From IMG/VR virus record IMGVR_UViG_3300008120_000266, positions 1-44,564 of that record: a stretch of DNA of 44,564 nt. One strand, 5' to 3'. Made by a program: the position numbers and the translations under genes. Origin of the DNA: a virus. Positions 10,468 to 11,602 of this stretch are shown in pieces (within the stretch, counting starts at the first letter, position 1; each line of letters opens with the position of its first letter). The notes under the pieces were generated by a model. That model did no database searches. It had not been told where the DNA came from and was given only the letters and a program-made list of their open reading frames with translations.

Positions 10468-10587
10468 ATGAGAACAATTAATAAACATAAACATTTTAGT
10501 AAATCAAGCAAATGGTTTAGCAATAAATCAGAACTTGGTACTGGAAAAGTATTGTGTTTATTTTTTGAAGACTTAACGACTTTATAA
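10468..10587 (+). CDS. leader peptide A (Lys/His/Phe/Trp/Asn)
   Basis: 39 codons. After MRTI it reads NKHKHFSKSSKWFSNK. Lys, His, Phe, Trp and Asn are exactly the acceptor types of the 11 tRNAs that follow; Ser is also frequent but belongs to array B. Past these codons, GAACTTGG (10531-10538) is complementary to CCAAGTTC (10612-10619) in the 5' arm of the terminator. The layout fits ribosome-mediated attenuation: a ribosome stalled at the diagnostic codons leaves the antiterminator free, while one reading through covers it. The last residues DLTTL are also the end of leader C, at DNA level as well. Confidence 0.8.
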   Translation: MRTINKHKHFSKSSKWFSNKSELGTGKVLCLFFEDLTTL

Positions 10588-10609
10588 AATAAAATATAAC
10601 TACAAACAG

Positions 10610-10638
10610 ACCCAAGTTCAAAAGACTTGGGTTTTTTT
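10610..10638 (+). terminator. attenuator terminator A
   Basis: ACCCAAGT (10610-10617) pairs with ACTTGGGT (10625-10632) followed by seven T. It lies between the leader ORF and the first tRNA of array A. Confidence 0.85.
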
Positions 10639-10647
10639 GTTTCTTAT

Positions 10648-10721
10648 GACTTCGTAGCTGAGTTGGTTCAAGCCTCCGACTTTTAATCGGAAGACCGTGG
10701 GTTCGAATCCCACCGGGGTCA
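10648..10721 (+). tRNA. tRNA-Lys(TTT)
   Basis: Acceptor GACTTCG/CGGGGTC, anticodon loop CTTTTAA, T-loop TTCGAAT, discriminator A. First gene of array A. No CCA encoded. Identical to the copy at 10899-10972. Confidence 0.93.
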
Positions 10722-10732
10722 CTAAAATAAAT

Positions 10733-10807
10733 GGTGTATGAAGGGGAAATGGTAGACCCGTCACTCTGTGAAAGTGAAGATAGCCGGATCGTTACCGGTC
10801 GTACACC
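10733..10807 (+). tRNA. tRNA-His(GTG)
   Basis: Acceptor GTGTATG/CGTACAC with an encoded G-1 (10733) opposite C73, as expected for tRNA-His. Anticodon loop CTGTGAA. The T-loop is ATCGTTA, with the usual T54/A58 pair replaced by A54/T58. Confidence 0.9.
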
Positions 10808-10815
10808 CAAAATAA

Positions 10816-10888
10816 GGAGCTGTGGCAGATGTGGTCATTGCGCTGGTCTGAAAAACCAGAGGAACGGGATCGTAACCCGTCGGCTCCA
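10816..10888 (+). tRNA. tRNA-Phe(GAA)
   Basis: Acceptor GGAGCTG/CGGCTCC, anticodon stem CTGGT/ACCAG with loop CTGAAAA, T-loop ATCGTAA. Identical to the copy at 11306-11378. Confidence 0.93.
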
Positions 10889-10898
10889 CTAAAAATAT

Positions 10899-10972
10899 GA
10901 CTTCGTAGCTGAGTTGGTTCAAGCCTCCGACTTTTAATCGGAAGACCGTGGGTTCGAATCCCACCGGGGTCA
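10899..10972 (+). tRNA. tRNA-Lys(TTT), second identical copy
   Basis: Same sequence as 10648-10721, including some flanking bases, so recent duplication. Confidence 0.93.
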
Positions 10973-10983
10973 CTAAAATACAA

Positions 10984-11056
10984 GCGTCATTGGTGTAATG
11001 GCTTAGCATCTTCGGTTCCAACCCGAAGGGTCAGGGTTCGAGTCCTTGGTGACGCG
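10984..11056 (+). tRNA. tRNA-Trp(CCA)-like
   Basis: Acceptor GCGTCAT/GTGACGC, anticodon stem TTCGG/CCGAA with loop TTCCAAC giving CCA at 34-36, discriminator G. C38 and the D-arm GTGTAATGGCTTAGCAT are unusual for Trp; a shifted reading would give TCC (Gly), but the stem pairing favours CCA. Confidence 0.7.
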
Positions 11057-11065
11057 CTAACATAC

Positions 11066-11136
11066 ACGGGTATAGTGAAATGGTATCATGCCGGTCTCCA
11101 AAACCGTTGTTCCGAGTTCGAATCTTGGTACCCGTG
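11066..11136 (+). tRNA. tRNA-Trp(CCA)
   Basis: Acceptor ACGGGTA/TACCCGT, loop CTCCAAA, discriminator G, T-loop TTCGAAT. Leader A contains a Trp codon. Confidence 0.88.
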
Positions 11137-11146
11137 CTAAAAATAT

Positions 11147-11219
11147 GACTTCGTAGCTTAATCGGGAAAGCACCATACTTTTAATATGGGGAGAGTGGGA
11201 TCGTAACCCACCGGGGTCA
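11147..11219 (+). tRNA. tRNA-Lys(TTT), divergent copy
   Basis: Shares the acceptor GACTTCG/CGGGGTC with the other Lys genes but has a different anticodon stem (CATA/TATG), D-loop and the T-loop ATCGTAA. Loop CTTTTAA. Confidence 0.9.
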
Positions 11220-11221
11220 CT

Positions 11222-11295
11222 GTGAATATAGCTCAGTTGGTAAGAGCGCTGGATTGTGAATCCAGAGGTCGCGGGATCGTAGCCCGTTATTCACC
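11222..11295 (+). tRNA. tRNA-His(GTG), second gene
   Basis: Acceptor GTGAATA/TATTCAC, loop TTGTGAA, C73. The base at -1 (11221) is T, not the G expected for tRNA-His. T-loop ATCGTAG. Confidence 0.88.
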
Positions 11296-11305
11296 CAAAA
11301 TATAA

Positions 11306-11378
11306 GGAGCTGTGGCAGATGTGGTCATTGCGCTGGTCTGAAAAACCAGAGGAACGGGATCGTAACCCGTCGGCTCCA
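11306..11378 (+). tRNA. tRNA-Phe(GAA), second identical copy
   Basis: Identical over its length to 10816-10888, marking a duplicated His-Phe-Lys block in array A. Confidence 0.93.
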
Positions 11379-11384
11379 CTAAAT

Positions 11385-11456
11385 TGCCTTGTAGCTGAGT
11401 GGTAAAGCACCTGACTCTTAATCAGGGGATCGTGGGTTCAATCCCCACCGGGGCAA
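11385..11456 (+). tRNA. tRNA-Lys(CTT)
   Basis: Acceptor TGCCTTG/CGGGGCA, anticodon stem CCTGA/TCAGG with loop CTCTTAA, T-loop TTCAATC, discriminator A. Reads AAG. Confidence 0.92.
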
Positions 11457-11474
11457 CAAATTAAAATATATATG

Positions 11475-11602
11475 TAGGGAGTAGCTCAGTTGGTAGAGCA
11501 CGTACTTTACTTTTCTATAACTTTACCTCGAAAGAGTGTTGATTAGAAGAGTTACTTCGGCTGTTAACCGCGTGGTCATGGGTTCGAGTCCCATCTCCCT
11601 AC
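11475..11602 (+). tRNA. tRNA-Asn(GTT) with a 55-nt intron at 28/29
   Basis: 5' exon 11475-11502 (acceptor TAGGGAG, D-arm GCTC...GAGC, A26, C27, G28). 3' exon 11558-11602 (CGG, loop CTGTTAA, CCGCG, T-arm ATGGG/CCCAT, acceptor CTCCCTA). Joining them restores a perfect anticodon stem CGCGG/CCGCG. The intervening 11503-11557 folds: GTA (11502-11504) with TAC (11553-11555), bulge CTTT, then ACTTTTCT (11509-11516) with AGAAGAGT (11545-11552), and a CTC-GAAA-GAG hairpin inside. Far too short for a group I intron. Confidence 0.75.

Follow-up and report, generated by a model that had tools for sequence, protein, structure and literature searches.

The window, a virus record of 44,564 bp (IMGVR_UViG_3300008120_000266) analysed over its whole length, contains five modules (A–E), each with a short leader reading frame, an intrinsic terminator and a tRNA array, and the five arrays jointly cover all 20 amino acids. 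Module A comprises the following features:

10388–10419, + strand: promoter of the Bacteroidota type (TTTG, spacer, TANNTTTG), from a pattern scan; similar sites lie upstream of relatives' leaders too
10450–10461, + strand: TTTTAATATATA motif 5' of the leader, a possible phage promoter by motif counts
10468–10587, + strand: leader peptide MRTINKHKHFSKSSKWFSNK..., control codons 5–20
10531–10538, + strand: region 2, the antiterminator strand GAACTTGG
10604–10638, + strand: intrinsic terminator, fold −13.4 kcal/mol, with region 3, CCAAGTTC, at 10612–10619
10648–11602, + strand: array Lys His Phe Lys Trp Trp Lys His Phe Lys(CTT) Asn(interrupted)

The reading frame at 10468–10587 has 39 codons and translates as MRTINKHKHFSKSSKWFSNKSELGTGKVLCLFFEDLTTL*, its stop codon lying 46 nt beyond region 2, and the terminator is separated from the first tRNA by only ~9 nt. 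An earlier note on this DNA had proposed a leader, an 8-bp alternative pairing and an array of 11 tRNA genes at this locus, and all three were recovered: its leader stretch NKHKHFSKSSKWFSNK corresponds to codons 5–20, regions 2 and 3 are perfectly complementary, and ARAGORN and Rfam placed the 11 tRNAs where it had put them. Both programs gave the first ten as Lys(TTT), His, Phe, Lys(TTT), Trp(CCA), Trp(CCA), Lys(TTT), His, Phe and Lys(CTT); the gene at 10984–11057, described earlier as Trp-like, is present and was called as plain tRNA-Trp(CCA). The eleventh, at 11475–11602, was added by Rfam and by inspection is a tRNA-Asn(GTT) whose 5' anticodon stem is interrupted by an insert of ~55 nt; its 3' part alone was called as Asn(GTT). 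This insert is possibly an intron-like element, and its GAGTGTT and GTTACTT are also present in the permuted tRNAs described below. The proposed match between leader and array holds for Lys, His, Phe, Trp and Asn and fails for five Ser codons (within codons 5–21), array A having no Ser tRNA; the Ser tRNAs of this phage reside in module B.

The other four modules of the window follow the same order:

11893–12021, + strand: module B leader MRTILNILVSSSRSSSGHVIRLCL (11893–11967), region 2 (11948–11955), terminator (11993–12021)
12030–12475, + strand: module B array, Arg, Ser(TGA), Ser(TGA), Ser(GCT, by inspection), Ser(GGA)
13389–13562, + strand: module C leader MRTINLNMINVNNTLNTVMVLNTLCIRH... 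(13389–13505), region 2 (13475–13484), terminator (13528–13562)
13574–16055, + strand: module C array, Asn Asn Ile Arg Ile Thr Leu Cys Met Val Val Leu Leu, with two inserted putative homing-endonuclease ORFs
19887–20040, + strand: module D leader MKTFNVNIAVVNPQIQDQDQP... (19887–19988), region 2 (19961–19967), terminator (20010–20040)
20769–21193, + strand: module D array, Gln Pro Asp Pro, 3' of an inserted putative endonuclease ORF (20121–20765)
29716–29866, + strand: module E leader MRTIVNISIEARGYEAYEAGYR... (29716–29811), region 2 (29789–29796), terminator (29836–29866)
29879–32478, + strand: module E array, Tyr Tyr Gly Ala Gly Glu(permuted) Ala, with inserted ORFs

The leader of module B contains ...SSSRSSS... 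ahead of Arg and four Ser tRNAs, and that of module D contains NPQIQDQDQP ahead of Gln, Pro, Asp and Pro tRNAs. Similarly, NLNMINVNNTLNTVMVLNTLCIR in the module C leader precedes tRNAs for Asn, Ile, Arg, Thr, Leu, Cys, Met and Val, and EARGYEAYEAGY in the module E leader precedes those for Tyr, Gly, Ala and Glu.

The arrays themselves show several irregularities. Putative homing-endonuclease-like ORFs lie between array tRNAs at 12355–12774, 13816–14412, 14824–15534, 20121–20765, 30004–30630 and 31264–31815, and one such region matches HNH endonuclease genes of Salmonella phages. Unusually long variable arms occur in tRNA-Ile(GAT) and other tRNAs (14376–14461, 13574–13662 and 31127–31207), and the anticodon of the gene at 31127 looks like TAT. 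Apparent circularly permuted tRNA genes were found at 32262–32385 of the window (Glu(TTC)) and at ~7036–7160 of segment L015 of the related genome LR745206 (Cys(GCA)). In both, the 3' half lies 13–15 nt upstream of the 5' half, the acceptor strands are complementary over 7 bp and the tails are complementary as well; when the halves were joined, the ARAGORN call varied with the chosen junction, and processing is only putative.

The window belongs, as a fragment, to a relative of the 'Mahaphages', phages of Bacteroidota with genomes of >630 kb. Its 763-aa ORF shares 42–43% identity with relatives in LR745206 (635 kb) and LR756502 (642 kb), and LR756504 (636 kb) and LR756501/LR756503 (735 kb) were reached via DNA similarity. 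The Mahaphage clade has been described with genomes of >634 kb, Bacteroidetes hosts and up to 67 tRNAs (Nature 2020, PMC7162821), and the phages studied here are very likely those of that report. The 614-aa ORF upstream of module A matched near-identical contigs only, a tblastn search of phages with the 548-aa ORF at 673–2319 gave no match, and a search of genome contigs for type-A leaders gave three matches, all without tRNA arrays. Our curated set holds 56 modules from 11 phage genomes or contigs, one over-long leader N-terminus having been trimmed; an automatic leader call in LR756504, MKGSDISE..., was rejected as the tail of a protein. In the Lak phage MK250016, taken as a control, tRNAs are dispersed and no convincing module was found. 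The Lak phage carries CTA- and TTA-anticodon tRNAs and LR756501 carries CTA-anticodon tRNAs; these tRNAs of the two phages (segments L060:3586-3739, L062 and L064) suggest stop-codon suppression or recoding.

The strongest evidence lies in the regrouping of amino acids: LR756504 and LR756501 group them differently, and their leaders track the change. Three leaders of LR756504 show this: LSLCLSLSLSL is followed by the array Leu Leu Ser Cys Ser Ser Leu Leu, KKQQYKQYQPQYK by Tyr Tyr Gln Lys Lys Lys Lys, and EIAVIGGAEE by Glu Ala Ile Val Gly Glu. LR756501 has IQEQMQQIQ ahead of tRNAs for Glu, Met, Gln and Ile, and a Leu-rich leader ahead of five Leu tRNAs. Two further arrays of this genome had no leader by our filter; leaders were predicted and then found on reading upstream, KYNDYCIND for an Ile/Cys/Asp/Asn/Tyr/His array and TPAPAVAFRRGTGTGTGTCVPAGCG for an Arg/Pro/Ala/Thr/Val/Gly array. 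The terminators of two LR756501 modules are imperfect and fell below the filter. LR756502 has MTTSFQQQQQQQINRTD ahead of four tRNA-Gln and ETIGYTGYEGAY ahead of Glu Tyr Glu Tyr Glu. Segment L027:6459-6994 (− strand) of LR756504 contains tandem leader-terminator units, KQDKQYQPQYD and then KKQQYKQYQPQYK, with a tRNA-Asp between them, an arrangement of nested attenuation.

In every genome, the pairing of leaders with their own arrays ranked first among all permutations (1/120 in the window and in LR756501, 1/5040 in each of five others). For the window, LR756504 and LR756501 taken together, z was 9.0, and 0 of 200,000 permutations did as well. The leader frame outscored both other frames in 56/56 modules, and 98% of the amino-acid types of an array were present in its own leader, against 51% in other leaders. 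Common ancestry of the modules inflates any p-value taken over the full set of 56, and we regard the within-genome ranks of the differently grouped window, LR756504 and LR756501 as the fairest numbers.

An intrinsic terminator lies between leader and array in 54 of the 56 modules. By dinucleotide shuffling, complementarity between region 2 and the 5' arm of the terminator was significant (p < 0.05) in 39 of these 54, the other 15 having p ≥ 0.05; the combined Fisher p of 4e-35 is inflated by shared ancestry, and module A alone gave p = 0.02. Own terminator arms fitted better than swapped ones (19.1 versus 13.1, z = 16.2), and thus regions 2 and 3 change together between modules.

A wider scan for such leaders took in almost the whole of LR745206 plus 158 kb of LR756501. 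It yielded 15 calls: one is a protein tail, and the other 14 stand before cognate tRNA or synthetase genes. Seven are leaders of tRNA arrays, including a Gln module whose tRNAs are followed by a glutaminyl-tRNA synthetase gene. The other seven precede synthetase genes, with families assigned by NCBIfam and Pfam, and all come from LR745206, the sole genome scanned nearly whole:

VVVNVSV: leader of ValRS, LR745206
IIII...: leader of IleRS, LR745206
ILLLPL: leader of LeuRS, LR745206
NNRNR: leader of AsnRS then ArgRS, LR745206
FNFFF: leader of a PheRS-like gene, LR745206
DDR...D: leader of AspRS, LR745206
LHTYK: leader of HisRS, LR745206, a weak match of one codon

The actual pairing of these leaders with their genes was the best of 5040 permutations. 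AT-rich sequence commonly holds short ORFs, and the leaders could in principle be coding or alignment coincidences in AT-rich intergenic DNA; the permutation, frame and swap controls and the 14 scan calls before cognate genes leave this explanation with almost no weight.

The position and choice of the matching codons are also patterned. The fraction of codons matching the array peaks at 0.71–0.90 some 5–10 codons before region 2 and drops to 0.48, 0.38, 0.25 and 0.08 over the next four codons toward it; a fall-off closer than the fifth codon is expected if a stalled ribosome has to leave region 2 uncovered. Within four- and six-fold codon families, rare synonyms occupy 86 of 163 matching positions, where 14.1 are expected (for example, Val GTG at 79% versus 6% genome-wide and Ala GCG at 61% versus 5%), as compared with 22 versus 17.3 expected at non-matching codons upstream of region 2. 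These patterns bear on a constitutive supply, in which leaders and terminators would set a basal level by fixed partial read-through and the match would be a relic or a balancing of codon usage. Such read-through is possible at intrinsic terminators; however, a fixed-rate device needs neither a match confined by the footprint, nor rare synonyms at matching codons only, nor tracking between regions 2 and 3, and we judge it improbable.

The earlier note had suggested folding the leader RNA with a ribosome footprint, and for module A the outcome agreed with its attenuation reading. With the leading edge of the ribosome assumed to lie 12 nt ahead of the A-site codon, a stall at codons 5–17 frees region 2, and P(2:3) is 0.99 as long as region 4 has yet to be made; stalls at codon 18 and beyond mask region 2. 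In the completed RNA the terminator is favoured over the antiterminator, and antitermination must therefore be kinetic. Since the stop codon lies so far past region 2, a ribosome at the stop would leave region 2 bare, making shut-off dependent on ribosome passage. A 1:2 protector (pause) hairpin found no general support, complementarity being mostly at chance (median p 0.48; 6/48 < 0.05), so that the default without translation would be read-through. If so, a general block of translation would fire every module.

Upstream of the modules, WATATATA occurs within ≤70 nt in 38 of 56, versus 1.5% of random windows, while a sigma-70 scan was uninformative (88 sites found, 84.7 expected). An internal promoter, which would transcribe the array independently of the leader, was sought through two motifs, a check that other promoter types could escape: neither TANNTTTG nor TAATATATA has a site in 10468–11603, and both lie just upstream. 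Rfam searches, at gathering thresholds over the window and at relaxed scores over 10300–10660, returned no amino-acid operon leader and no T-box. A T-box-type riboswitch sensing uncharged tRNA on the leader RNA without translation would share control of synthetases through a terminator/antiterminator choice, but the absence of a match in these searches, and a signal that is an in-frame codon run in an ORF and not a single specifier triplet, make it exceedingly improbable.

Given the observed anatomy, leader-array match, alternative pairing, footprint spacing, rare codons and conservation in 11 genomes or contigs, together with the permutation, frame and swap controls, we consider module A to be, with a probability of about 0.9 judged from sequence, a ribosome-mediated transcription attenuator of an 11-gene tRNA operon, in which scarcity of charged tRNA would turn on the matching array. 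Transcription would begin upstream of 10468, with RNA polymerase followed by a ribosome that translates the leader. A shortage of charged Lys, His, Phe, Trp or Asn tRNA would stall this ribosome in codons 5–17, leaving region 2 free to pair with the emerging region 3; this pairing would block the terminator hairpin and let the array be transcribed. When tRNAs are plentiful, the ribosome would pass over region 2, the hairpin at 10604–10638 would form, and transcription would stop just before the first tRNA. The product would be the very tRNAs whose lack was sensed, closing a negative-feedback loop, with one loop per amino-acid group, all 20 amino acids covered and, in LR745206, cognate synthetase genes added to the control. 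We infer three steps here: translation of the leader, read-through as a result of stalling and, as the natural trigger, tRNA loss in infection, for which host tRNA-cleaving defence, host shut-off and rare-codon demand are candidate sources.

The main rival trigger is amino-acid starvation, as in biosynthetic operons. A stalled ribosome cannot distinguish an absent amino acid from an absent tRNA, and the presence of synthetase genes under the same control speaks for this trigger. Output tRNA, however, gives no relief of an amino-acid shortage, and the LR745206 scan turned up no leader ahead of an amino-acid biosynthetic gene; starvation as the trigger thus seems unlikely, though it deserves more weight than the other alternatives. 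Returning to tRNA loss, we tentatively propose, at slightly less than even odds, that 20 amino acids distributed over 5–8 attenuators form a sensor network that detects host tRNA loss, such as cleavage by anticodon nucleases, and replaces only the missing tRNAs and synthetases.

For decades, codon compensation and evasion of tRNA-cleaving defences have been competing explanations for the tRNAs that phages carry. The control logic proposed here would tell what the phage monitors, namely specific charged tRNAs per amino-acid group, and would take attenuation beyond operons for one amino acid to a viral network that serves all 20, in which leaders and arrays co-evolve through regrouping. Like the enteric attenuators (trp, his, leu, thr, ilv), the phage modules have a short leader ORF with control codons, an antiterminator competing with an intrinsic terminator and footprint spacing; they differ in that their output is tRNA arrays, one leader reads up to ~10 amino acids, a general 1:2 protector hairpin is lacking and several modules span all 20 amino acids. 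The E. coli pheST attenuator, whose leader is rich in the cognate residue and controls translation genes, parallels the phage Phe, Val, Ile, Leu and Asn/Arg synthetase leaders, whereas the phage version is phage-borne, serves many amino acids and is coupled to tRNA arrays. T-box riboswitches likewise tune translation genes to the charging of specific tRNAs via terminator/antiterminator, but their RNA reads the tRNA directly and has no leader ORF. Phage tRNAs have been reported to replace those lost to host nucleases (eLife 2023 PMC10264068; Nat Commun 2024 PMC11555353); these studies concern which tRNAs phages carry, and their abstracts describe no regulatory sensor. The words 'leader' and 'attenuat' are absent from the text of PMC7162821, and in the open-access literature we found no attenuation of tRNA arrays, ribosome-mediated attenuation in phages or 20-amino-acid network. 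The class of mechanism is already known, while its target, its carrier and the 20-amino-acid network appear to be new.

The leaders may also offer a sequence rule for the specificity of uncharacterised phage synthetase-like genes. The FNFFF leader lies at L098:1230(−), and the gene that it precedes (L098:21-1097(−)) has 'PheS-related mystery ligase SrmL' as its best NCBIfam match, at 423 bits; the leader suggests that this gene is specific for phenylalanine. At L006:24038-25624, 3' of the HisRS gene, two ORFs contain KVDGANMG and KLDGSNIR, which by eye resemble motifs of nucleotidyltransferase-like RNA ligases, and a role in tRNA repair is possible.
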